From Acholoe squamosa (taxonomy: Eukaryota > Annelida > Polychaeta > Phyllodocida > Polynoidae), in the NCBI GenBank assembly GCA_949317995.1, contig OX439043.1, positions 7,804,501 to 7,868,500 on the forward strand: a stretch of DNA of 64,000 nucleotides, in the 5' to 3' direction. Made by a program: the position numbers and the translations under genes. Under the pieces are notes generated by a model, which saw only the letters and a program-made list of their open reading frames with translations, ran no database searches and was not told the DNA's origin. Positions 6,501 to 63,700 of the stretch are shown here, one piece after another (the first letter of the stretch is position 1; each line of letters opens with the position of its first letter).

Positions 6501-9500
6501 ACCTGTTATTGCCTTCCTTGGAATGTGTGTGAGGGGTGGGAGTAGTGTGGTGCCCCCCCCCCCCCCACCCACCATTCAGAGATGGGGGGGGGCAATGTCC
6601 AATGCAGAGGATTATGAAGGAGCAGTGCTTTGTATTAGAACACAGGGCTATTCCTGTGGCCTCTGCCACCACTTCAGTGACCAGGATTCACCACCACCAC
6701 CACAACCACACTACTCCCACCCCTCACACACATTCCAAGGAAGGCAATAACAGGTCCACCACCACCCCCACCACCACCCCCACCACTACTACCACCAACC
6801 CTACAGTTGGAAAGCACCACTATTCTGTGCTTTACTGATTTGCATATTTTAATCTGTGGGACAGGAATATACATGGAGAGCGAGCAAGCACCACATTCAC
6901 GGGCATGTCTTGAATGCAATGATGCAATCTCAGCAACATTGATCTTAATATGAATATGCACAGCATTACAACATTACTGTGCATTACTCTGCAGATAATA
7001 CGGTATAAATTTCTAAATGGTAAAATGCACGGCAAAAAAACTGCATTTAGATTCCATATTTAAATCATGATATTTGATCCTAAAATTTAGATCTGAAATC
7101 ATAATATCTTGATCATAGATCTAAGATCCTAAATTTTCAATTGAATCCTTAACATAATCTCCTAACCATTGACCCCTTGTAGATATCTACCATTTACATT
7201 TGCAATAATTTGTAAAAAGACATTTTAGTATAAAAGAGAATTTAAAAATTGTTTTGAATCAAGAAAATGCTGAATACTAGCACGGTTAAAAACTAATGCA
7301 TGACATCACCTCCATTTAAATTTTCCAGAGAAAAAAGAAAAAGATGTTGTCGGTACAAAATGATTCTATCTAATAACCTTTCCCTCTTTCCCTAAAATTG
7401 TTGCACTAAGAGAGTGTAGAGAAATGTGTCATCTCGACTAAAGATACAAAATCTCCCAACGTCCCAAGTTTTAACGGGAGTCATATCCTGTTGCACACCA
7501 TCCCTACCAGATGACAAAACAGACATTTGTTACCTTCCTGCACTTGCACTCTTCAGTAGTGTCACAAACATGATATCTGAATAACATTTTATCAGAAAAA
7601 TATCATTTACCCAGTATCTCTTTTTGAATTTCGATTGCACATTCCATCTTTGTAATTCACACAAGTAAATGATTTCCACAATTTTTAATATGGTCTTAAG
7701 GTTTTTATTAAATAATATATTTTAATTATGCAAACAAACACTTATAATAGATATCTTCAATAGAAAGTGGTTACTGCTTCATCCAACATATTAAATGGAC
7801 GAATACCTTCCAAAGCATGCAGGGAGTTCTGGATAGGCTACATCCCATTTAGCAAGAAAACATGTTTTTAAACTCTAAATAACCTAAAAAAAAAAAAACA
7901 GATTTGTGTAAAAAACCTTTCCTTCCTATTCTGGGAAACCTGCTCTTTGTATATGAGAAAGGAGATTAAAGTCAAATCTCAACATTTGTTAACAGGGTTC
8001 AGTGCACATCTTTGAGCCTGCTAACCCCAACAGTATATCATGTGTGATGGACATTCACTGTGGCCAGTTCATCGGTGTGGACGTGCTGCCCCCTGGTGGA
8101 GATCTCTGTGTGTCTGTACGTGAAGATGGAGAGCTGCAGGTTTGGAATATGTCTAACGGAAACCTCGTCTCCTCAATGCCCATTGGCCTCCAGGTGAGAA
8201 CCTCAGCTGAAAATATACTCTTATAAGTAACATGGCATATTGAATTATGTATGATCTGTCTTCTAACTTGAAAATGGTTTTTGTAGAGATGCCTAATCAG
8301 TGCAGGATCAAACAGCTAGAAAGCGGGGAAATGTCTTAATTCTTATGGCTTTACCTTCCTTGGATTTATGTATTATACATTCCAAACAGGGAAGAATATA
8401 TGCATAACTAACTGCAAAAAACATTTCAAAATGATATCCCAAGATGTTTTCATAAAAATTATAAGCACTCCAGTATGCATTTTAAACTGTGACTGAGATG
8501 TAAATGTTAAGTATAATTCCCATCTTGTAGGCTACTAAGATGGCTGTGAGCCCCCTGACCCATGTAGCTGTGGTGGGTACAGTGTCGGGCTATGTGTACT
8601 ACGTCGACCTCAACAAGCTCGAGTCACCGCGCATCATCAGCCGCGTCCGCATGCACCAGGGCCCCATCAAACACCTTGTGTAAGTCTCACCTAGACATCT
8701 CACATCCATATATCGGGCTTCCCTAGCCCACTTAAAAGGGTCTATATCTCCTCTTTCCTATCCCCTCGGGATGTGTGTGGTGCACATATGCGCGGGCACT
8801 GACACATTCCTCTGTTAAATTGCCAACCTGTGAAGCACGGGATAGCCACTTAGTGCCGCTAAAGTGCTGTAAAACACAAATCAATCAATCAATCAATCAC
8901 ATCCATATCTTACCACGATGTGTCATATTCCATTGACATATAAGACCCCCCCCCCAACCCCTACAGCAGCAAATGGGGTCCAAGGAATTTGGTTTGAAAT
9001 TGAATTTTGAGAACAGAGATTATGCTATTTTACGGGCACACTCCATGCCATGTTAATCAACCCACAGGGGCCAGTTTGCATGAAATAAGTAATAAATAAT
9101 AGTGTACATTAACCAAAGACAACCTACCTATCTCAACACATTAAAAATTGAATAATGTTATGTATTTGACTTTAAGGTTTAACTACAATGGCCGCTTCCT
9201 CTTCACTGGTTCTGACGATGGGACAGTGTTTGTGGTGGATGGCCGCCCGTCTAAAAATTACGAGCCTATTGGTCATGTCGGTAAGTGGTAATAAACTTTT
9301 GATCATGAGATTCACATTTGTCCAAAGCCTTTGAAATTTAATTTCGGCCAAGAACAATATAGACCTTTCTATTAGTCAAGCATCTAATAGATGAATTTGT
9401 GTAAATGCAGAAAATGCTTTTGATCTATAGATAGGCTTTTAATTCAGACATATAAATTGTACAAATATAGTTTATTTTTATATGTATTAAAGCTAATGGT

Positions 9501-21500: not shown

Positions 21501-24500
21501 ATCTCCTCTTTCCTGTCCCCTCTTTCTTACATGTGTCTGGTGTCCATATGCACGGGCACAGGCACATGTATTCCTTTGTGACGTGATGTCTAATGTACTT
21601 TTTCTGCCATGAATATGACCTTAGCTGTCGGCTTGGCGTTAAACAACCATTACTCACTCACTCACATATCCAGATCCAAGCCATGATGAAGGAGAACGAA
21701 GGAGTCCCTGACATAGAGAAGCTGGCACGTCACGAATTTGACCTGGATGTGGAGGAGCAAGCCCGCCTTCAGGCCGAGGCCGATGCTGAAGTAGCCAGGG
21801 TGAGTCCTGTGTATCCATTTTCAATGCTGAAATACCCATAGAGGAGGCAGGAGGAAGAGGGCTGCCATACCTTAGGCTTTGAAAACTTCTTGATTAAGGT
21901 ATCACATAGAGATGAAAAAGCAAAGAAACAAAATTTTACATGTACTTAGATGAATGTACTCATGCTGCACCACATTATGAATCTATTATTTTAATAAATG
22001 TCTAAGTTTGTTTTAAAATCTGGGTTAAGAGTTTTTTTTTTTCATGAAACACTGATATACCAGTCACTGCTATTGTCTTTCATAGATCCGTGATGAAAAG
22101 GAGTTTGAGAATCTGGCTAAGATGTACCTCGCGGACCTCATCAAACAGGAATGCTGGGATGGCATGGAGATCAAAGGTCGCGGAATTATGGTGAGGTCTT
22201 CAACCATACCCTTTCTCGAATAATATTATGTTTTATGCTTGCATAAATCCCTAAGGACTTTCCCTTTTTTTTACAATTGTAATATACTTTTCTTGAAAAA
22301 TGCAAAAAAAGTTGAAATCTGTAATATATGAAATACTGTACAATCATGAGCATTGCTGATCACCTTCAAATCCAGTAAGATCCAGCCAACACTTCAGTCC
22401 CTACCAATTTCAAACACAACTTCCGTCTCAATAACTCTTATCCTCGGTTGTTCTTTAGGCTTTCCACTCTGCCCTTGAGTGCCACAACTACCCGATGCGC
22501 TCCCGCTCCAAGGAGGAGATGAAGAAGCTGTCCAAGGCTGTAGAGCGGCGCCAGGTGGAACTAGCTGAGCTGGCAGTGAGTACCATTCACTTCATCCATG
22601 TTAGCTTACATAAAGAAACCAATGGAACTGAACTTTGTTTTCTATATATTTCCCATATACCATTTACAATCTAATAAGAAACCTTTTATGCCTCTGGTCA
22701 AGGAATGACCAGGAATATAGCTGTTTCATTTTCTGTTAATCACTGCTGACAGTCAAGGGCCTTTACCATATTAGACGTAATTAGCGCACATACCCTAATA
22801 CGCACACACACCCCTTTAGCACTTAATGCACATGATTATTTGAACACAGTATATTGGGTACTGTAATAGTGATATTAAAGGCAACAATGTGGACTGGTGC
22901 AGCATGTTTTCACACCTTGGGGGGGGTGGGGTCATGTCCTATATAGCACCCAGTATTCACACCTACAGGTGTTGCAGCCAATGCAGGTGTGAAGGCTGGA
23001 CTGTAGGAGTACACTTGACAACGTGTCACATTAACACTAGCAGGCATCTGAGTACTTCCATTATAGAACTATATTTTGTGGGGTGTGCACTTATTAGGAT
23101 TAAATTTTGTTTGTGGTTTTTGAGGAAAATATGTTTTTTTAATCGCATAGTGCGCTAACTACGTCGAATAAGGTATGCCTAAATACAGTAAATCCAATAA
23201 TAATCTACAAATCAGGAATGGTAAAAGGTGTGAGGCCCCTCATAAAGGTACCTTCTACCTTGTTAAACCTCATTGTACTAAAGCGACAAAAATTTGATTG
23301 TGAGTTGATATGTATTTGTCTCAAAGTACTTGATTCGAGATATCTTTGTTTTTACTATGATGTTTTTTTTTAAATCTTTCAGGCTCGTAAAGAGTTTGAA
23401 GCCCTACAGAAGCCAAACTCAACAACAGTAAGTCATGTTTCTGCAGTACCTTTAAGATATTTGAGTCCTTCATAATAAAGAATATATTTGTATACTAATT
23501 AGGTGAGGAGTTGGTGTACACAGACAATGCTATCTCTCTCATGGAATATTACCACCTTAAGGACAGCATAATTTACTCTATTCATTACCCATTGTTGTAT
23601 GCAGTTAGTTACACCATGATTATCTGACTATTTAAATGCCATAAAACCCCGGTCAAAAGCCAAATTTTTTTCCCTATTTTTGGCCAAAACCGGCCTTAAA
23701 TTTCCCTCAAACTCTACCCCTGGCTTATAACTGGGGGTTTATTACTATAGATTAAAGAGAAAAGGATTAAAATATAAAGGCCCCAAAACCGGCTTACAGT
23801 TTTTCTGCAAACTCTACCCCGGCGTATGACTGGGGCCAACTTATGACCGGGGTTTTATGATAGTATAAAACTCATATTGTTGGTGGGATGCATGAATAAA
23901 AACAGTGGAGCTAGTTTCCACTACTTATTCAATACATGGCCAACAAAGCAAAGGGGCCTTAGGTTAGGAGACATTATGCTGCCCTTACAATGTGAGAGTC
24001 ATAACCATAATATACCAAATGTAATGACTTTGAATAAGTAACTGATAAAGAGCTTCTTACCTTGAATATCACTAAATTCTACAACTTCTGTAGAATTTAC
24101 TGATGGCATGTGGAATTTGGTAACATTGATATTGCTATATTTCATACAAATAGATAGCAAGCTGTAGATATATGTATTGAAGCTGCCGAACAAACCGCAT
24201 TTTTTTTCATGAAAAGAACTCCTTTCCGGATATTTATGATTTCCCACTTTCCATATGAATAGATATATCAACCAAAAGATAAAGACAATAAGCATGTTAC
24301 TTAAAGATAGGATTATAGAGATATTTAGCAACAATGCCTTGTCCAATGAAATGCAGACGTACCATAAATCTTCTGCATTAATGTCTGGGTTAAATGCGTC
24401 CTGATTGCTAATGGTCCCTATTGATGTCCAAAGTAACATCCCATAGGAGCCACAACTTCAATCATGATATCTACTTGCTACTTTCCTCCTTTACGCCTTT

Positions 24501-27500: not shown

Positions 27501-30500
27501 CTCATTTCTTTATGAACGATATACATACACCACATGCATCAACTTGATAAAACGGCTTATGTCTCCTCTCGCTTGGTAGATCAGCCTAAGATGAATAATC
27601 AAGGGCGTGGGAAATATTCAGAGTGGGTGGGACCAGGGGGGTTTTCTGCAATTTTTGACCTCCCTTTGCTTGACCTTTTTAGGAGTTGGCCAAAAGTGGG
27701 GGGGGGGAACATGCCCCCCTGCTTTCCACACCCATGATAATCCTATTGAAAATCCTGAAAGGGCGATGGAGCTGTGAAGGGATACAAACTAAACATTGTA
27801 GTATATGGCTCTGCCAGAAATATTAAACTTATGATAAAAATATGAGGAGCAATGGTTTGGATTGTTAATGCTATGCCAACCTCATGTTAAAAGGGAAGAT
27901 GTTTTCGCCCTGCTTTTTCTATGTAGTGTTGTATCCATGCACAATTCCAACAGTGCACAGGCGGGAGATGGACTCTTCTTAATTTTTCCAGTCTCATGTT
28001 GGGTGGAATCAGGCTCACATAGAGAAAATAATCAAATTATTTTTACTTTTCAACTCTATGTTCGCCATAAAAGATCCAACTGAGCGTGGAGAAAAATTTG
28101 CAGATGGATACGCATTTGAAGTTTCCGCACAAAACTCAATGCCGTGCAGGTCATCAGCAATTCTGGGTAGATGATATAAGAATATGAACTTTCAAAAAGT
28201 GTCAAAGAAACCCAAATGGTCATATAAATGGGGGGGGGATCAGTAAAAAAAGTTACTATATCTTCCGTCTCAGTTATCTATATTTCTACAATTGCTTCAT
28301 ACACCCTTGTCCCAGCATGATTTTATCGTTCATGTTTGCGCTTTTCTTTTCTAACATGAATATGCTATTACCGAGCATATTCATTGATTGCTGTATGAAA
28401 AAAGATAAACAGTTTTGCATCAGAATACTGTAGATACCCATGGATGATTTTCCGCTTTTTTAAAGTTTGACACCTTAGATGTTGCTTATCAGATCTATAC
28501 CCGGGATTATACTTAATTGTCGGGCTTCCCTAGCCCACTCAAAGGGTCTTTATTTTTTTCTTTCCTATCCCCTTAGGATATGTGTGGTGCACATATGCGC
28601 GAGCACCAACACATTCCTCTGCGAAATTGTGTAATGTCGTTCTCGCCATGAATATGACCTTAGCTGTCGAAATGACGTTAAACATCTATTACTCACTCAC
28701 TTATGAATACTTATTTGTTTATATTTGTTTCAGTTTTCCTTTTTGATTTTTTAAGTCATTTTCAGCAACTGTTGCAGGCGAATTGATTTTTTTCCCCCTT
28801 ATCAGATTTCTTTCCCAAAAAAGCAATTTATCATTTCGTGTGCTTGTTTTTGTAGGCAATCCTGGTATGTTTAAATATCATTGTTAATTCTACCTTTTTC
28901 TAAGTAGTGCCTTAATCATAGATCTTTCTATCCCTCCTGTCCCAGAGAGTCATAGAGAGTCCCTTGCACAATGTGATTTGGGCCTCTTGAGCACATCTCC
29001 CATTCTGATATCATTATTTACTGAACAGCATCATGAGATCTTCCCCAATTACAGGATTCCGCATGGTTCATCGGCCTGTCTCCTTGCGCTTTGTAAATAA
29101 TTTAACCATTCCGAGTACTGCCATAATTTCATGTGCATGCCATACTTATCATTATGCCTGCCAATTATGCTGCTGCATATGGACATTAATTCTTGTTGCT
29201 CGAAAAAAACCCATCCATCTGACAAAATAAAGTTATATTGATTCAAGGTGAAATCGTTATAGTGTCGAAATCATAAGAAGTTCTGAATAAACCCTGAAAT
29301 GAACATGTACACCAAATACAAATTGAAATCTTAAGATATTTTATTTGTTTGTGATTGATAGAATGTCCTGTGTACAGCTGGACCTTTCCTTCATTCCCCA
29401 TATGAAGAACAGACTCACAATGTTTTAAAGTCATATGAAAACATCAAAGCTCTCTCTGTAACAAAATAAACCCACATCTTTTCTGATCCATACATCTGAA
29501 CTCTCCAACATTTTCCAATGGTGAAAGGTGTTGTCAATTCCATTCAACAAAGTAGTGTGCTCTCTCTGTATCCACATTCTTGTGGTAGTTCAAACAAAAT
29601 GTGTAGGTTATTAGCTCTGAGTATCTTGGTGACTATTAGATCTTTACAGCAGTGTTTTTGAATTTTTTGAAAATAAATAGGAAATAGGTAAATTCACCCA
29701 AGTGGTGGATTACAGTTCGGAGCATGCTGCTTGCTGAAAAGATGAATGATGCGATGAGTCTTTGGGTCTGTGTACATATCATAGTTAAACCGTCTAAAAC
29801 TGAGTTTGTTGGTGGTGAAACATTGCTAAGTGTCTTCTGAATAATTGTAAACATTTCTGAACCCCCCTCATGAATGCAGGTTGATACTGGGGTTTAGGGT
29901 GCAACATAAACACTTTGACAAAAGTCCCACTCAATACCCTCCTCATTCCACATACAAGGCATCATATAAAGGACTCAAGGAGTGATCATTTGTTAACAAC
30001 TGGGGGTGGTAAGTTTGAGCGGGGGAGGGGGCAGAAAGAGGCAACCTATTTTCAGCAAAAAGGCCTGTGTGTTAGGGGTGAGGATTGTGAACCTCGCGAG
30101 GGGTGAATTTCTTTTTTCGCATGTCAGCCCATCACTTCCCTCCATGTTGTTAGAAAATTAAATTATCACTCCTTGATGGAAATAAAAAAAGACATGAACA
30201 ATCCTCTCATGATTCAAACATGAAAATGGAACAATATGCAAGTCTAATAACTTTTCTTTGACCAAAATCCCCATCACATGCCAGAATTTAAGAAAACATG
30301 TATCGAATATTACAATGTTAATTGCAGTGGACCTTGCTCTGGTGATTTTCTTATGTGTTATAGGTGTAAGGAAAACAATGATGTACTAGCCACTCCTGTG
30401 CTGCAAAGCCACATGTCAAAATGATTACAAGTGTTTATTTGATTTTACCATGATCTAATTTTAACAGACTTTAATACCTGCAAGTTTACAGACATGAAAA

Positions 30501-41600: not shown

Positions 41601-44600
41601 GACTTCATAAGTGCCCTGGGTTGTGAGGTGTGTATATATAAGTGGGGACATAATAAGTCAGTAGCTTATTCAGCTGGTAATTCATCAGAATGAACTATAG
41701 AACACCACTCCAGAGACTGAGGCTCTAGACTATGAGACTTGGGATAGATCTTCATATAAAACTAACATGTTTTAAACTGATCTTTTATATGAAGAATTTG
41801 ACTTTGCTTATTTAAGGTCAATTTGATGCTAGATATAGGAAGGGTGTCTTCTCAACATTATACTTCAACAATCCTGTTTTCCTCAATGATATTTCTTTCC
41901 AGCTTTTGCATATTAAAGGGAAAGGTTTTTCCCAAAGAAGCCCAAACATAATTGTCATCCTTTCTTCGTTATGTGTTTGGTCTTTCGTCGTTCAGTGTTG
42001 CTGATACTATGATAATCTCAATTGAAATACTACGGGGTACAAATGTTGACCATCCAGAAACCAAAGATCAGGCTTTATTCATAATTACAAATGGTGAAGT
42101 TCCAAACTGTGTGATACCTGCATGATACTATGTGATCAATACCAAAGGTCAGTTGGATCAGTTTACCCATCTGCTGCTCCCTTAATTCACCATGAGATCT
42201 CTGATATTATGTTGCTGCTGTACCTTATTTCAGGGGCAAAGCCTTTAGAGACTCTCCTACCCAAATGACTGACTCCTACCTACTACAGTAATATACACTA
42301 GATATTTCTCATCATCGTATTTATCATACGACCGCCTGTTTCCTTTGTGTAACGCTTCATGGAGTAACCACTTTTTCTCTGCCTGACTATTGTTTGTCTG
42401 TCTGACTTTCATGGTAATGGACTGACTCAAAGTCTCTATGATAAAGTCATGGAAATTCAAAGCTGGACTTTATTTGAGGGAATAATTTGATCATACCTAT
42501 AGGAAGACAGGCTATGAATTTAAATAAAAAACTGCCATCTTCACAGGTTTTGCGAAAGATAGCTTTAAATACTTTTTTTTTCTTAAATCATCAATTTGCC
42601 ATTTAAGACTTCTCTTATTGAATTATTTGTGTGACAGTATATAATTTTTGCATGCAATCAGGATGTTTTGGGCTCAAGGGGGAAAGGGATATAAAATCTG
42701 TTCATCTAAAAACCGAAGACATGTGTTTTACCATCAAACTTAAATTTTGTGAAGAAGCATTTTCAAATTTTTCATCAATGATGAATATTCTTTTCTTTTT
42801 GTAATAGCAGCATGATCTGTGTTTTGCTCACTATCAGTAACTGTTCATAAAAATAAACCTTTCAGGACAGAATTGTGCTCAGTCATTCATGTTTATTTGT
42901 TGTCAAGGGAAACAAAACAGTGCTTGTAAAATATCAAGTCACTTGAAACAAAGGGACACAGAGTAGAGCACCATACTGTCCTTAAAGGTTAAGAAAATCA
43001 CTCATAAATTCTCATTTTTTGTTATATTTTACATATTGCACCGTTATATCCGTCTCTCACTTTGTTCCCATACATTTCATGTTCAATATTGTCTACTGCA
43101 TGAAATATATCAATTCTTCATTGTTTTTTTACACTACGAAGAAAACTGTCATAGTTTATATTCAAAAGTCAGATTTGGGATCATATACTCATTCTTGACA
43201 AGTCGGCAAGCAGAGGACAATGACTTGGACTATAGACATGAAACATGTCGACTGAATCAGTTCTATTGGTCTAGGATATTATTTGTGCAGTACAACTACC
43301 ATGAAACTTCTCAGCAAGTTATTGCAACTCAAGCAATCGTTATAGACTTAACCCATTTTCTCCAAGGGCAATCATGTCTTGAATAAATGTACAGGTGGAG
43401 GGTATTTTTCTGATACTTTTCTTTACAGTAAAATCCAGTTGTCACTACTCAGGATTAGAATTCAAGTTTTGACACACTGTTAGTGCTCAATTGATCAAAC
43501 TATTAGTAACTTGTAAAACATACAATGTATACATACAGTAGTTTAAATATAAAAAAAAATACCTGCTATTTGTAGAGGACAGAAGGGTAGAACTGTGGAC
43601 ACTCCAACCTTTGACCCTGCTCATGGAAACCCCTTCGCAGAGAGACCATCGACTGCTCGTCAGAATGATGCAGCTAAGGTGTCCCTGGAGTCAGCTCTGG
43701 CTGAGCTTGACAGGGAGAGTAATGCCCCTGAGGGAGTCGAGAATCATGTCTGGGAACGCATGTGTAGATTCCGGCGACAGAAGATTGAGAGCGAGCAACT
43801 TGTAAGTACTTCAGCTTGTGATCAGAGAAAAGGAATTGCTCAATCTATCTTAATGAATTTCTGAGACATTGACTCCAAATACTGGAGTGAGGACTTAATA
43901 CATGTACTGGTCCCCTATTCAAAATTTTGCTGGATGAGGTAAATTGCACTCATTATACAAACCATAATGGGTACTGTCATGTTGGTGCTATCCAAGAATA
44001 TGCTTGTCCTATCTCATCAACTCTTAGTGGATGTTGGAATCAGCTCCAGTCCTTCTTGTAGCTTATGTTACCAGCCTCAGTATAGAAAATATTTTTTCTG
44101 TTCAACGATTCCCAAATTGAACGTTACACCTTTTGCATACTTCAGGTGAAGCAGAAGGCGCTGGTGTTGGCCGATATGCAGGCCTTCCTGCAGAAACGGC
44201 AGGAGGAGGACGAGGACCTCAGACAGGAGATCGACGACATCATCTCTAACCTCAACAAGTATGTTAACTTCTCCAAAATATGTACTGAGTGACATCTGTC
44301 ACTAAGTGATGCCTCACATATCATAAAAGCCCTGACAAAAGTCACCCAGCATTTTGGATATTAGGCCAAATCAGCTCATACATTTTCCAAAAGAAGTGAG
44401 GGGTCAGTTTGTTGATAAGGAAAATTTTTATTCCATAGATAAACGCATTGAAGCTGTTTGAAATATCTAAAATATCAGGTCATAGATTTCTTTTCTTTTT
44501 CTTTGCTTATAAATGAAATCAGGTGTTGTGAGAAGTGCCATAGTTATGTGCCTTATGTTGTAGACTAAAGGAGGACCGTATGTGCTTTACATGTAACCTT

Positions 44601-45505
44601 ATGTTGTAGACTTAAAGAGGACCATATCCCATTTACGTGTAACTCATATATACCCTATATTGTAGATAAAAGGAGGACTGTTTACAGTTACATATAACCC
44701 ATATATACCCTATATTGTAGACTAGGAGGACTGTTTACAGTTACATATAACCCATATATACCCTATATTGTAGGACCATATCCCATTTACAGTTGGGATA
44801 TTACAGTTACATATAACCCATATATACCCTATATTGTAGGACCATATCCCATTTACGTGTAACTCATATATACCCTATATTGTAGATAAAAGGAGGACTG
44901 TTTACAGTTACATATAACCCATATATACCCTATATTGTAGACTAGGAGGACTGTTTACAGTTACATATAACCCATATATACCCTATATTGTAGATAAAAG
45001 GAGGACTGTTTACAGTTACATATAATTCTCGCCATGAATATGAGCTTAGATGTCGAAATGGCGTTAAACATCTATTACTCACTCACTCACTCACTACAGT
45101 TACATATAACCCATATATACCCTATATTGTAGACTAAAGGAGGACTGTTTACAGTTACATATAACCCATATATACCCTATATTGTAGACTAAAGGAGGAC
45201 TGTTTACAGTTACATATAACCCATATATACCCTATATTGTAGACTAAAGGAGGACTGTTTACAGTTACATATAACCCATATATATATATACCCTATATTG
45301 TAGACTAAAGGAGGACTGTTTACAGTTACATATAACCCATATATACACTCTATATTGTAGACTAAAGGAGGGCTGTTTACAGTTACATATAACCCATATA
45401 TACCCTATATTGTAGACTAAAGGAGGACTGTTTACAGTTACATATAACCCATATATATACCCTATATTGTAGACTAAAGGAGGACTATTTACAGTTATAT
45501 ATAAC

Positions 45506-45572
<67 letters not shown>

Positions 45573-45671
45573 CTATATTGTAGACTAAAGGAGGACTGTT
45601 TACAGTTACATATAACCCATATATACCCTATATTGTAGATTAAAGGAGGACTGTTTACAGTTACATATAAC

Positions 45672-45728
<57 letters not shown>

Positions 45729-46108
45729 CTATATTGTAGACTAAAGGAGGACTGTTTACAGTTATATATAACCCATATATACCCTATATTGTAGACTAGG
45801 AGGACTGTTTACAGTTACATATAACCCATATATACCCTATATTGTAGATTAATGGAGGACTGTTTACAGTTACATATAACCCATATATACCCTATATTGT
45901 AGACTAAAGGAGGACTGTTTACAGTTACATATAACCCATATATATATATACCCTATATTGTAGACTAAAGGAGGGCTGTTTACAGTTACATATAACCCAT
46001 ATATACCCTATATTGTAGACTAAAGGAGGACTGTTTACAGTTACATATAACCCATATATATACCCTATATTGTAGACTAAAGGAGGACTATTTACAGTTA
46101 TATATAAC

Positions 46109-46151
<43 letters not shown>

Positions 46152-46250
46152 CTATATTGTAGACTAAAGGAGGACTGTTTACAGTTACATATAACCCATA
46201 TATACCCTATATTGTAGATTAAAGGAGGACTGTTTACAGTTACATATAAC

Positions 46251-46285
<35 letters not shown>

Positions 46286-49200
46286 CTATATTGTAGACTA
46301 AAGGAGGACTGTTTACAGTTATATATAACCCATATATACCCTATATTGTAGACTAGGAGGACTGTTTACAGTTACATATAACCCATATATACCCTATATT
46401 GTAGATTAATGGAGGACTGTTTACAGTTACATATAACCCATATATACCCTATATTGTAGACTAGGAGGACCGTATGCGGTTTGCATGTAACACATATATA
46501 TGCTATATTGTAGACTAAAGGAGGACCGCATGCGGTTTAAATGTAACCCATATATATGCTATATTGTAGACTAAAGGAGGACCGTCCCTTGGGCTCTACA
46601 ATAACATCTAGTTGAAACCTGATGATTACTTCCCCCACATAGACAAATCATACCACCATTTCCGCTGATAGTGCCTATCAACCTGTGAAGCACAGGATAG
46701 CCATTTAGTGCCGCTAAAGTGCTGTAAAACACAAATCAATCAATCAATAAAGGAGGACCACATGCGGGTTTACATGTAACCCTGCCCCTGTGGAGTGGGT
46801 ACCTTCATGTGAGTGCATGGAGGAGCAGAATAACTTCATTGGGAGTCCACAAGGAGAAATCTCCTTCCATACTGACAGTGGGCATACCAGATTCGTAGAA
46901 GGCGACAAAGCTGGGGTTTCTTGTGTCTTGGGGTGAGCATGTGGGCAGCTGGTGTCCATATGCGCGGGCCCGGGTCTACATGCTTGTCTTTTACCATGGG
47001 ATTCCCCCTGAGGGAACCACGTCTGAGTGATCAAAGGCTGTGGTTTGTGTGGCCCTGCCTATGGGACCAGGCAAATAAAAGAACACTTGCTATCCTTCGA
47101 AATGAGCAGGGGAATGAAGCCCCGGTAGCGGTTTTCCCCCTCACCCCTCCTCATAGATTCGGTCATTCATCTTATAGATTCGGTCATTCATAGATTTGGT
47201 CACTGCTGTGTCGGGCAAGCAGCATATAATGGTAAGGTGAACGATGAGCAGTTTGAGCTGACCGTTTCTTCACGAGCGCTTCCTACCCGTTCCGCACGAG
47301 GCCTTTCGGCCTCGTGCGGAGCGGGCAGGAAGCGCGAGTGAAGAAACAGGAAGCTCAAACTGATCAGAGTTCATCTTTACATTTATGTCAAGGTGTTTGA
47401 GTGGAAAATCAATCGATATTTCATCAATACAATCCATAATTAACTCCTATTTACCCATCTTCATCGCGAAATGCTGACCGCCGCCATCTTGGATGTTTAC
47501 GTTTCAAAAAGGCTGCACATGCGCGGTGGACCTATGACGTCATTGTGCGGATTTCCCGCAGGTTATTTAACGCAGGGGTGCAATACGGGGGTTCAGTGCT
47601 TTGTCAATGGGGTATCGATATTCACCTTGACATAAAAATACCTGTCCAAAAAGAAAAGAAAGGACTTAATGTCCGAGAAACCTTGAATGTCTGAGTTCCT
47701 CGATGGCCCCTGGACGTAAAACTAAACAAACAAACAAACATGTAACCCATATATACCCTATATTGTAGACTAAAGGAGGACCGCATGCGGTTTACATGTA
47801 ACCTGGAGGTGCAGCTGCTGCTGAAGCAGGGCCAGGTGGAGGTGGACGCAGGACCCTTCATCCATGACTACCACGACAGCATCCTCATACACAGACAAGT
47901 CGTGGAGGACCTCAACCAGAAAATCAGGGTAAGTGAAACACATGTTAATAGTCTGATAATTTTCAAATAAGCACTGTTGATATTCTTGATATCAGGTACA
48001 TTCACAGAAAATAGGATGCAATCAACTGCCTTTGACAATTTCTTTTGAAAAGTTTGGTCATGTTTTCGTGCAATTCAACAGTCAAATTTCATGATAATGC
48101 TCCTTCATATCTTCTGCTATTTTCCTAGCTCAGGATATAAGTTGAGCATGACCTTCTCATTGCAGCACTATGGAGAGAGTAAGATAGCGAGTATGGTGGA
48201 GAGCAAGGATAATAGGAAGAGTATCGTACAACTGGAATGGTAAGCATGAAAAAAAGGGCCAGATCTAGTATTTAATTAACCAGCTTTGCACTTAAAAGAT
48301 TTATGCTGAAATAATGTGCACTACAATGGTTAACTTCTTTTTGCTATATTCATTGACTACCCTGTGTGTATAGTTAATAGACTCCCAAAGTGTTGGCATG
48401 ATGCTTCAATGCAGTTTGATAGTCCTTGAAAAGTTTAGCATAATGCAATATTGCAATGCCAGTGAGTCACCCACCACCTCTGTATTGGTGTATCTGACAA
48501 GAAAAAGAAATACATTTAGTCCTCTTGCAACCCAAAGAGGTTTACCCATGAAGCTGTATATCAGTATCAGCTTCTCTGACCTGATAACAATCACTGAATC
48601 TGGAGTATTGTTTTTCACTTCCATGTCTCTTTTACACTTCATAGGGAACACAAGAGGATGACGATGGAGATGGAAGACCTCCAGAACAAGCAGCGAGACG
48701 TCCAGAACCTCAAAGTCACGCGTGAAATACAAGGAGTAAGTTATTCTCACTCATATATTGTGCCCATAACTGAATTCCATGGTACGTAACTGCCAGTTAT
48801 CATTTAGGAAGAATGAGGATTTTGGTAATGTGAGATAAAACCTTGGTAAATGAGTGGGTGGGTGGGGAAAAACAATCTAACATGTCCTCCAATTGCCGCG
48901 GCTAATTCAAAAGAAGCTTGCGGTACTGAGGGCCGGGTGCTGCAAAGCGGTCTGGATGCTGCAAAAATTTAGTGTCTGTGAGTCCCAAGGGGGGGCGTGC
49001 CACCGGTAGCAGTTGGTTTTTCCCACCCTCGGGGAGTGCCGAGAGGCGTTTGAAACCATGAAACATTCATTAACTGCAATGATCCATCATTCCAATCAAA
49101 TCCTGTCGGATCTCACCTTAATTTCTTGTCTTTGAATGGGTAAATTGTAGTAGTCCATGTATAAGGCAGCCCACTTTTAAGGCATCTTGCATGTGCATTT

Positions 49201-52317: not shown

Positions 52318-54957
52318 CTACCCAATGACATCTACTGCATGTTGTGAACCTTTACACCACTTTATAAGATCAATCATCACATTGATGACAGCAATAGAAA
52401 TTAACACAAACAGTATTAACACACCGACTAGGGGCAGCCATACAAGGAGTATGTCCTCACTGATATCAAGGGTGTCAGAGGCAGAACCCTGTGGTGGTAT
52501 GTACTCTGCCTCCAGGAAACCAGCACGGAGAATATTGATCACAGCTAACACAAGAAGGGCAGACGCAGAAAAGGTGCCTGCAAGGTTAGCCTTATTACCA
52601 TTGTATGGTTTGATGTGAAGGTGAAATATGAGACCACAGAAAATCACCACACACATAAAGAGCTGTCTATAGAGTGGTCGCCATGAATATGACCTTAGCT
52701 GTCGAAATGGCGTTAAACACCTATTACTCACTCACTCACTCTATAGAGCAGGGCCACTATGAACGTCTTTCCCAATACAAGAAGTAGTTGGAATAGGATC
52801 AGAACCCCTGCCCAACACAGAAATGAAGTAGACGATAGTGGATGTGACTGTCGATATGGGCCTTGAAGGGCATCGAATGCTGATGAGGCTTCCATTGAAA
52901 TCTCAGGGCCATTTTCTTGAACCAAAGTTCTCTTTGTGAATCTGCAAATCCATTAGAGAATAAATGGAAGAGGTATGACACAAGCAAAGACAAACTCACA
53001 GTGAGATATGAAACCCGTCTTCAGTAGGCTAGGACCAAACATGAGAACCAGACAAAATGGACAGGAGCAAACGACAGCATAAATCAGAATAGTAATTTGC
53101 AATGGCTGGTAGCAACTTACATTACCATTGATGAATACTATCATATCCTTTCTGAGTGGAACACAAGATAGGAGTTCAAAAGTCGTCACTGCCAGTTTCT
53201 GGTAGGAGAACATTAAGGCTGTTAGCAAACCTGATACAGCTGGTTCCCCTAGTTTGCCAACAGTTTCCTTCTTGCATGTGATGATGGCCCTTCCTACCCA
53301 ATAAAAGGCAAAAAGAAATGTGAGGAGCAGAGGAACAAATGTCACTTTGAATAACATTTTTCCTTCTGGGGTGAGTCCCTGGAGTACACAAACATCACCT
53401 GTTGTCAAGCTGAACAGACCTACTCTAAATTCAAAAAGGCCCCCAAAGAGTGATTTGAAATCTGAAATTGCTGATGGCAGGGCTTTTGCTTGAAGCACTG
53501 GAATGGATATGATTGAAGCATCCTGAAAATTATAGAATAAAATTATGCTGAATCCCCCATCCTCCTGTGAACCTTCATCTTCCTTAGTGAATCTTCATCT
53601 TCCTTACATTCAGACTGTTCCTTCATGTTCCCCCAGCAAGCTGTACACCTTCCAATAGAAACCTGACTCGTGAATGCACCAATAAAGTCCTCTTGAAAAA
53701 GCAGAAAAATTGAATAGAGAAAACAGCAACCTATTACCAATACAATGACCCAATATCCATCACAATGATCATCTTTCATACACTTTGATGTGAAAAGTGC
53801 TTCTAAATAACCCTGATTACATTGTCCACAGAGGATACCTGTCCTGTTATGGTTGCAGCTGGTACCTAAGGCTGAGGTCTCACCAAAACTATGTCCGAAA
53901 CAATAGGAAGATGGGCATCTCAAAGCATGAAGCCTTCCTTCAGATAAATCTGCCCAGAAATATGGCTTAACACAGACTTCACCAGGTGAACAGTCGATAC
54001 CATAAGGACAGCGAAAACAAGTTATCGCTTTTCTTTCCATTATGCTGTCATTATGGACGAGCAATGAACCATTGTCAAAGCTGTTAGAGTTGTCACAGAC
54101 AGCACAATCAAATTTCAAAATCTTTTATACTTCCCCCTACCTGGGAGTGTTCCATTTTGAAGAAGCTCATTGCTTTTTGGGCAGGCAAATGAAGATTTCT
54201 GCATATTGACATACTTATCTCCATAAAATAAATATCATATTACTTCCAGGTAAATGAGATATGAATTCTGAATTTTCAATTATGGATTCAGTGTCTAGTG
54301 AATATATCAACACACCTTCAAGCTTATCATCTTCATTCAATGTGTTTCCTTCTATTTGGATCTCGGAAATCATTAGTAATTCAACGCTGTATGAAAATAT
54401 GGTGCCACCATATTTGTTTGCAGTATTCAGCAAATTCTAATGCACCTAGATTTTCAATAAAAGAGGAATCTTTTTTATTGTGATTACAAAATTCACCTCT
54501 TGAGTGGAATCTAAAAAGTCTCTTACTTCTGACATCATATGCAAGGGTCGGTGGCACCCAATTAAATACTTCTCATATGTTGCTGCAAGTGCATTATTCT
54601 GATGTATGAGATGTTGAAACATGCATGTGATATTTGGAATGATGAATGTGATATTTGAAATGATTATTATTGGTTTATAAGGCCATCTCCATCCACCTTT
54701 AAATATCAGCACTCTGCCTGGGTCTCCTTCTTCAGACCGATTACAGCCAATTCTAACATTGTCCCCAAACCCAATGATGGATAAACGTTTCTCAATGGGT
54801 TTGGTCATACAATGTTCAAAGACATCATCAGATGGTAGAAAATAGATGGAGTCTTGGCAATTTGTTATATTCATTCTGTTCAATATATTATGGATGTTAA
54901 CGCAGGGGGACGTGATGTTGACACCACAGTGTGTTTCATTTGTACCATCACTCCCTA
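52318..54957 (-). pseudogene. Broken beta-helix/Cys-rich/multi-pass membrane protein gene
   Basis: Read from 54957 downward: NETHCGVNITSPCVNIHNIL, NCQDSIYFLPSDDVFEHC and IIIISNITFIIPN (start of a parallel beta-helix), then YGDKYVNMQKSSFACPKSNE, a Cys-rich part FRCPYGIDCSPGEVCVKP and NHNRTGILCGQCNQGYLEAL, then about eight hydrophobic helices (GYWVIVLVIGCCFLYSIFLL through LLVWLPLVGVLILFVLISIA) and a stop at 52318-52320. The arrangement matches a large, undescribed invertebrate family of extracellular beta-helix plus multi-TM proteins that I recognise by pattern only. Lesions: frame changes near 54225, 54125 and 53535, an in-frame TAA at 52953-52955, and a SINE tail at 52675-52739. The beta-helix is also far shorter than usual. 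Hidden introns could explain one or two breaks but not all. Confidence 0.75.
52675..52739 (+). mobile_element. Tail-only SINE insertion inside the membrane-protein exon
   Basis: GCCATGAATATGACCTTAGC, GCGTTAAACA and an (ACTC)n tail, 65 bp, flanked by TCTATAGAG at 52666-52674 and 52740-52748. Removing the element and one repeat restores the frame ALLYRQLFMCV across the site. Antisense to the host gene; the tail gives the host frame a TGA. Confidence 0.92.
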
Positions 54958-60437: not shown

Positions 60438-60643
<206 letters not shown>

Positions 60644-60711
60644 ATTTATTTCAGCAAGGTCGTCCCCAGGGGACGTTTTTCCACTCGCCGTTTGGCAAGG
60701 TACAGAGAGAA

Positions 60712-63700
60712 CTAGATCATGATGGCATGAGGAATTCTTGATTGGTCAGGGTCAAACACTACAAATGGTGCAGATAGAGAGGGAAAATCGATGCATCTGA
60801 ATAGCCAATCGTAGGCAATTAGGGTTCACCCACTGCCCCTCACTACGATTGGACTGGATCGTAAGGGGTGGGCAATTCGTAGTGGGCAGACTGAATTCGT
60901 AGCGTTTGAGAAATACCTAGCTGGACACCTTCCCCTGTAAGTGCTGAGCACTCAAAGTAACCACTGGCACCTATTTCCTTGGCCAAGTTTCTGCCCTCTT
61001 GTGTGGTGAGTGGTTCTTCCTTATGGATCTGTAAATATCTCCTAGTGTCAGGGTCATAGCGAAGATCTACTTTAAGGCCAACAAGAACAACCGGAGCTTC
61101 AGGACAATGGTGCCTCACTTCAGGGACCCAATTGTTCTGTACGTTTTCAAAGCTGGCTGGAGAATTAATACCGTAACACACAAAAAATATGTCAGTTTTG
61201 GGATAACTCTTTGGACGTAGTCTGTCATAGTCTTCCTGGCCAGCAGTGTCCCAAAGACCCAGATGACATGTCTGTGCTTCAACCTATTTTGAATGGGAGG
61301 AAATAGTTGGATTATTATCAGAATATTTACCAATTAACATATACATATATGTGTTTCTCAGGTTTTAAAGTTTCCCAAATCAAAAATGTCGTCAAAACCT
61401 GCACTCAAAAATGTTTAATTAATGTTTAAAAAAATAAACATTTTATTTCTATGTTATAAAAATCTTCAATTTCGACATTGATAACATAACTAGCAATCAT
61501 TCTTACAGTGTGGATAAAACGAAAGCTGAAATACATTGAAAAGTGTAAAAGAAACCTTTTTTAATAAATGGTTTTTTACTCAAATCATTGCAAACTAAGC
61601 CAAAAGGTTTTTGTATTTTTTGCCAAATCTTACTCTCACACGCAGCAATACACTACTTTCATCCCTTTCCTTACAGATTTGCTTTTTGTAAATACTTTCT
61701 ACTAAAACAGTCTATACAAAAACCTTTTCCCCTCTGCAGATTTCATTATTCGGCAGGACTGGATTGATCTTGGCAGGAAGCACAGCAAGATTATTTTTGT
61801 TGTTGTTAGGAAAAGAACAAGAATCAGCTCATTATTTTTATCATTCAACTATTTAAATCTGAACAACAGTAATGCCTTTTATTTGAGGGTGTAAAATGCT
61901 AATAATGGTCCATTTTGTGAGCTGTGACCATGACAATGTAGCCTAAGGTACCAAGACATTCGGTCCTGCAGTCTGGCAATGTTTGTTGGCCTGGCAGCGA
62001 TTTTGTCAGGAAAAGCCATTGTCTGACAAGTTTTCATATTGACTGGTAAAACATCTTACCTCAGTCTCAGCTGCAGAGTTTTCGAAGACGGTTGGCATGT
62101 ATTCCTCAGGAAACCGACCATGGCTAAATCGTACTAGCAGACAAGTCTTCCCTCATGCTCCGTGTCCAACAGCAACTATTTTGATGTTTCGTTCCCGCCC
62201 TGAGGTTTCAGCCTTTGTAGATTGCTTTTCTGCTTTTGGGCTTTGCGTATCACCGGCAATCAGTTTCCTATTAACATTGTTTTTGATAACTTTCATTTCA
62301 GAAATCAGATTTATAAATCTAATAAATGATGATGCTAGCTACTATAATACATCCAGTGTATAGAAATTTATTAATATCTGTAAGTGCATTTTTTAATTGA
62401 TACAAGAACAGAATTTGTTATAATTGAATTCAATAAGGATTATTGGAACAAGGTAACATAGAATAACTTACCTGTACCAAGTTACAGAGCCACCAGGGTT
62501 GGACGTGTTATTAAGTAACCAAGGATTACATTCTAAGTCTTGGATCATTGATTATGACAAATTGTATTTTATATCTTAAGCATACTTTGTTTTTAATGCA
62601 TGGGGGGGAGTATGCATTATATGCATTTAATATGCATTATATGGTAACCTTCTGTGGATTGTGCAAGGCTGGGGTTGTTTTCAACTTCTTGTTTTCCACT
62701 TTATTTACCGTATATATTCCCGCCTACAAGTCACACTCATGTATACACATATATGAAATCCACTTCCAGCTGTATAGCCTAGTTTAGAGAGAACAAACAA
62801 ATAATTCCTATGTTAAACAGCTTTATATAGGAATATAGAGGGAAATTCCTGACCTTTGACCTTGGCCTATGCAAAAACTGCAGGGATGTGCATGAAGAAC
62901 TTTTGATATATGATTACTAGGGTCATTACCTATACAAAACCACAAAAATTATTTAGTGCCCCTCTCACTGGAATGGAACTTGTTTTCTAAGCCCTTTATA
63001 GGGGCTCACCCTGTGGCCTACATGAACCGGGCATAGAAGTCACTTTGCACCTTACTTGCTGGAAAGAAATATGACATGTTTATCTCTCTAACACCCATTT
63101 TTTTTATGGAATCAACCACAGTGGGCCCCTCTCCCTTTGCCATGCGTTCCCTATTGAAATGTATAGGAACCCTGGACAACCCCTTCCCCCTCCTCCTACA
63201 TTATGTCCTTGTGGATGGCCTCAAGTTAATGTACCAAGTAAAGTCGTCAGGGATTAGGGAAAGGAGCCAGAGCTCAAGGGCAGGGAACTGATATTTTACT
63301 ATCATCATTAAACGGCCTTGATTCAAATTGATCTCTCATCTAGAGAGAGAAATTATGTCTTGAAAGTATCCTAATTCAAGGCTAAACACTTTATGCATAA
63401 CTCAATGAGTATCCTCACTGAAATATCATGGTAAATTGCTAAAGAAGGCCACCAGTTTTATTCAAGAAGAAGTAAAGTTGTTAGCACTCTGTGGTAAATA
63501 TAGACGTCTTAAAACAATATCCGAATAGAACATAGCCATAAACAGTTACCGTCCTTCAGTTTTTCAGATAGTGTTCCGTTCTGCTGATTACTCCCTTGTT
63601 TAGGTTCAACCTGCTTACTTCCAGCAGCCTCAGTCTCACTGTATTGCTTAGGGTTTAACTTCAGAATTTGACTGATGATATGCTCCTGACTGTCCAGGTA

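Follow-up and report, generated by a model that had tools for sequence, protein, structure and literature searches.

Boundary-spanning repeats in other genes

In amphioxus, minisatellite-like tandem duplications lying across an intron-exon boundary, termed mirages, have been described in the globin genes BflGb6 and BflGb9 and in Adh3; they were known earlier from the latter gene, with units of 10-72 bp, and show length instability (PMC3087553). The authors noted that the copies could serve as cryptic splice sites, and the Adh3 data together with RT-PCR of the globins suggested that regular splicing is not disturbed (PMC3087553). The array described here, located in an intron of the cilia gene CFAP43, has a similar architecture. 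The duplicated segment runs, as in BflGb6, from the 3' end of an intron into the beginning of the following exon; as in the amphioxus mirages generally, AG/GT signals recur in many copies and the units at the boundaries escape homogenisation, and its 55-bp unit falls within the range given for Adh3 (PMC3087553). The BflGb6 mirage is made of 150-160 bp units and occurs in two haplotypes, with 6 or 3 copies (PMC3087553), whereas the CFAP43 array has 33 decoys, a higher-order block and three insertions, and lies in another gene.

Other comparable cases are known. Tandem repeats of 60 and 108 bp in lancelet PGBD5 likewise include splice sites and are thought to be harmless to splicing, but they are imperfect and the 108-bp unit is present in three copies (PMC3902484). 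In the potato RdRp gene the duplicated segment also crosses an intron end and an exon start; there a single duplication is described as giving a new intron that is used, while at CFAP43 a new intron is not evident (PMC4974935). The minisatellite of IFI6 (6-16) carries splice sites in its units as well, although these are donors and two downstream units are used (Turri 1995, as summarised in PMC4526556). Within the literature collection searched, no title or beginning of an abstract among the matches listed described such an array in a mollusc or in CFAP43. The CFAP43 array is a new and large case of a kind of repeat known from lancelets. The initial annotation called a minisatellite seeded by a splice junction unusual; a lack of parallels is not supported, since the amphioxus mirages are of the same kind (PMC3087553).

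The CFAP43 junction and its array

The window, that is, the whole stretch of 64,000 nucleotides analysed, contains CFAP43 exons spread over approximately 1.2 to 49.3 kb, some but not all of their boundaries being confirmed by alignment. The features around the array are as follows.

44146..44258, + strand: CFAP43 exon A, ending in AAC AA, with the donor AA/GTATGT at 44259; placed by spliced reading and protein alignment
44259..44551, + strand: beginning of the intron, ahead of the array
44552..44609, + strand: unit 1, with its acceptor at 44564, followed by the beginning of unit 2; both units read TATGTTGTAG and are 46 bp apart, and CCT marks either end of the segment that was probably duplicated first
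44610..46583, + strand: units 2 to 33, with decoy acceptors from 44610 to 46570; the steps are most often 55 bp, and four long (AT)n runs are present
45026..45094, + strand: insert A, a dispersed repeat that interrupts unit 9 between the two copies of a 15-bp duplication, TACAGTTACATATAA; the window contains three more copies of the repeat (88-95%)
45361..45902, + strand: units 14-21, first copy of the higher-order block
45964..46459, + strand: units 23-30, second copy of the block, with shorter AT runs
46584..46747, + strand: insert B, with a 12-bp duplication, TAAAGGAGGACC; its final 70 bp have a second copy at 8824-8893 (97%)
46760..46782, + strand: remaining, exon-like part of unit 33, which separates insert B from insert C
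46783..47737, + strand: insert C, 955 bp, with an inverted repeat at 47223-47387 (81%), an (AAAC)n tail and an 11-bp duplication, ACATGTAACCC
47748..47768, + strand: intron side of the last unit, the putative working 3' splice site; the same 21 nt occur in 20 of the 33 decoys
47769..47928, + strand: CFAP43 exon B, which contributes its first ~35 nt to the repeat unit; donor AGG/GTAAGTG at 47929

When exons A and B are joined, an open frame of 91 residues without a stop is obtained. These residues align end to end, and gap-free across the junction, with CFAP43 in three PDB entries (8j07, 9d2f and 9fqr; E-values from 9.9e-18 to 3.8e-19), and the product matches the Pfam family CC_Cfap43 (1.4e-36). 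At the join, the 8j07 residues IL-LQEEKVRFQLN stand opposite the exon A/B junction, including the coding part that is repeated in the array. Since the junction residues pair with CFAP43, exon B starts at 47769 and its repeated part is old coding sequence, so that the array was seeded by an ancestral exon edge. The coding start at 47769 also aligns with the units beyond the AG; the initial annotation had named a failure of this alignment as refuting it, and its coordinates for the exon start and for the decoys hold. The unit, made of an intron end and ~35 nt of exon start, is therefore tandemly repeated across a boundary of its own host gene, and its source is a true exon edge. Among the 32 CFAP43 exon boundaries compared (16 acceptors and 16 donors), copies spanning the boundary were found at this one only (32 matches, including 47769 itself).

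The acceptor-like motif TAT[A/G]TTGTAG occurs 33 times at 44564-46570 and once more at the real acceptor, 47769; elsewhere in the window it is present once on the + strand (19912), and the minus strand of the window has no match. The ~33 decoys in front of one real site that had been noticed at the outset are thus 33 copies of the 3' splice site together with the first ~35 coding bases. A search for TTGTAGACTAAAGGAGGAC allowing up to 3 mismatches returned 27 matches, namely 26 decoys and the real site (100 shuffles: mean 0.01, largest 1). The string ACTAAAGGAGGAC is exact in 16 decoys and carries one or two mismatches in 10; a 2-base deletion is seen in 5 (units 4, 8, 20, 29 and 31), and 2 (units 5 and 6) have lost the first bases. 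The period of ~55 bp reported initially is exact for 12 of 33 unit-to-unit steps; the others lie between 46 and 139 bp, apart from a single step of 1,199 bp across inserts B and C. Of the interval 44560..47790 that had been given as the array, 46584-47747 consists mostly of these two inserts.

The units fall into several classes. Units 1, 31, 32 and 33 are exon-like, units 2, 5 and 6 are intermediate, 24 match the search string of a single derived form, and units 14 and 23 differ from that string by one base. Unit 33 was classed as exon-like by reading and not by string search; as this unit is pieced together across insert B, its identity of 84% is an approximate value. Homogenised inner units are accordingly flanked by boundary units that have escaped homogenisation. 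Units 14-21 and 23-30 form the two block copies: all eight pairs are identical over 34 nt at an offset of nine units, while other offsets from 1 to 24 reach at most four of eight. Units 1 and 2 carry TATGTTGTAG, and CCT is found both 13 bases before the exon (GTG CCT TATGTTGTAG) and at exon base 34 (GTAA CCT GGAGG), with a spacing of 46.

Subtraction of the insertions restores the periodicity of the array. Without insert A, unit 9 lies 55 bp from unit 10; without inserts B and C, decoy 33 lies 57 bp from the true acceptor, which identifies the real site as the last unit of the array. No second copy of insert C was found within the window. All Rfam matches, including the microRNA-like ones at the inverted repeat 47223-47387, stayed below the gathering score, and ARAGORN reported no tRNA. 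Six donor-like sites scoring above 5 are present in 44564-47768, all of them inside insert C and none in the units. The insert A family has copies at 28643-28701 and 52678-52741 (95% identical) and at 21606-21674 (88%); the last of these stops 8 nt short of 21674, where the start of a CFAP43 exon was placed by eye, and the CTCACTCAC tail of this copy thus seems to act as the tract of that acceptor.

Choice of the acceptor

Scored with a simple model against 20 other CFAP43 acceptors, a set that includes five acceptors placed by reading frame and eye, the real acceptor reaches 2.3, and only two of the 20 are lower. An earlier comparison, in which it had appeared far weaker than 15 others (-0.7 versus 4.9 to 11.3), was dropped because 14 of those 15 references had been pre-chosen by an acceptor-score filter. 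Among the decoys, 27 of 33 are within 0.1 of the real site, units 32 and 33 are slightly below it (2.2), and units 1, 2, 5 and 6 exceed it (5.7, 3.2, 4.8 and 4.8, respectively). As the decoys score equally or slightly better, sequence strength in this model cannot select the real site. The AG-free stretch was discarded as a selector, as it measures 73 nt at the real site and 20 to 89 nt at the decoys, two of which have a longer one; no consensus branch point was found at the real site, and branch points do not favour it.

What does separate the sites is their distance to the donor at 47929, which is 160 nt for the real acceptor and 1,359-3,365 nt for the decoys. This donor scores 10.4, the fourth highest of the 15 CFAP43 donors scored with a correct boundary, in a ranking made with a generic matrix and among donors most of which had passed a donor-score filter; the donor of the exon starting at 1228, which was set one base late here and in the comparison of the 32 boundaries, is left out of the ranking. 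Exon definition is established in splicing. Given that the exons of this gene measure 74-228 nt (15 measured), an exon B of 160 nt, as against one of at least 1,359 nt, would explain the choice of the real site, and we infer that exon definition selects it over the decoys. The acceptors of units 1, 2, 5 and 6 count against this explanation, since sites with a better sequence would have to be skipped. So does the state before inserts B and C, when the real site and decoy 33 were 57 bp apart and exon definition alone would not have told them from each other.

Use of a decoy would be costly. All 33 share the phase with which the previous exon ends (AA/A), as initially proposed, and all meet an in-frame stop before exon B, so that CFAP43 can be made only from the distal acceptor at 47769. 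Truncation within about 18 codons at the TAG of the next unit, as had been predicted, applies in part: the stop comes after 1 to 74 codons, after exactly 18 in 10 of 33 decoys, and in 20 of 33 a later unit supplies it with its TAG. With stops so early, the products should be decayed.

Origin of the array and alternative readings

The explanation that we consider quite probable is that a mirage-type minisatellite arose by duplication of the CFAP43 intron/exon boundary, was amplified in the intron, and is spliced out with it, the acceptor of the last unit being chosen by exon definition. Judging from the units, the array would have started with a duplicated segment of 46 bp, to which the intron contributed 10-13 bp and the exon 33-36 bp, each breakpoint lying at a CCT; growth of the intron side would then have brought the unit to 55 bp. 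A single altered unit may subsequently have been amplified in the middle of the array, the duplication of a nine-unit block included, while the end units retained exon-like sequence, and inserts A, B and C would have arrived later. At the RNA level, exon B would be recognised as a unit through its good donor 160 nt downstream, the nearest decoy being 1,359 nt from that donor, and the array would leave with the intron, the last unit providing the working acceptor. Splicing to a decoy would lead to an early stop and presumably to nonsense-mediated decay, which makes mis-splicing a cost rather than a function. By analogy with the described mirages, the array is probably spliced over without effect.

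It could instead be supposed that the decoys act as a regulatory brake, being used at a controlled rate to give truncated, decayed mRNA and so tune the CFAP43 dose. The phase common to all decoys and their invariable early stop would fit such a role, as would the equality in score between most decoys and the real acceptor and the presence, in 44259-47768, of 30 GGAGGA motifs, which we take to be enhancer-like. The similarity of the units is however already expected from tandem copying, the decoys would yield exons of 1,359-3,365 nt, and the published mirages are reported to leave regular splicing unhindered (PMC3087553, PMC3902484); a brake is thus highly unlikely. That the array is the older element and supplied the 5' edge of exon B by exonisation is barely credible: the 21 nt ahead of the real acceptor are indeed of the array type and unlike the unit-1 form, yet the residues that this part of the exon encodes pair without gaps with CFAP43 in the PDB entries and are for this reason older than the array.

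Near-identical blocks and long AT runs are error-prone for assemblers, and both are present here, so that the array length or the inserts could partly be an assembly artefact. This appears distinctly improbable, given that the two blocks differ in the length of their AT runs and that the inserts break single units and are flanked by exact target duplications. A further scenario takes the history of the inserts into account. The acceptor might have been absorbed into its own decoy array and the exon insulated later by inserts B and C, which increased the distance to the nearest decoy from 57 bp to 1.2 kb and provided the real site with an AG-free stretch of 73 nt; the amount of intact CFAP43 would then be set by copy number and inserts. 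We hold this to be rather unlikely.

Other repeats in the window

A 57-bp minisatellite at 1374-2785, in the CFAP43 intron that follows the exon starting at 1228, contains 19 of the 49 GTAAGT motifs of the window and lies just downstream of a GTATAG donor. It was considered as a donor-side parallel and rejected, as its unit has no above-chance similarity to the exon edge: alignment scores were 16 (1331-1382) and 22 (1290-1350), compared with a median of 16 and a 95% value of 24 for random 52-nt windows. An (ATT)68 run at 60442-60646 (99% matches) lies near a minus-strand reading frame at 60843-61283, which presumably resembles a Rho-type GTPase.

Significance of the array

Taken together, these data indicate that boundary-seeded minisatellites can exceed 30 units next to an exon that retains its open frame. 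Such minisatellites would be no lancelet oddity, provided that the host is not itself a lancelet. The CFAP43 array is a natural test case for the choice that the spliceosome makes among 34 nearly identical acceptors; if the last acceptor alone is used, exon definition must decide, rather than acceptor strength or the choice of the first AG.
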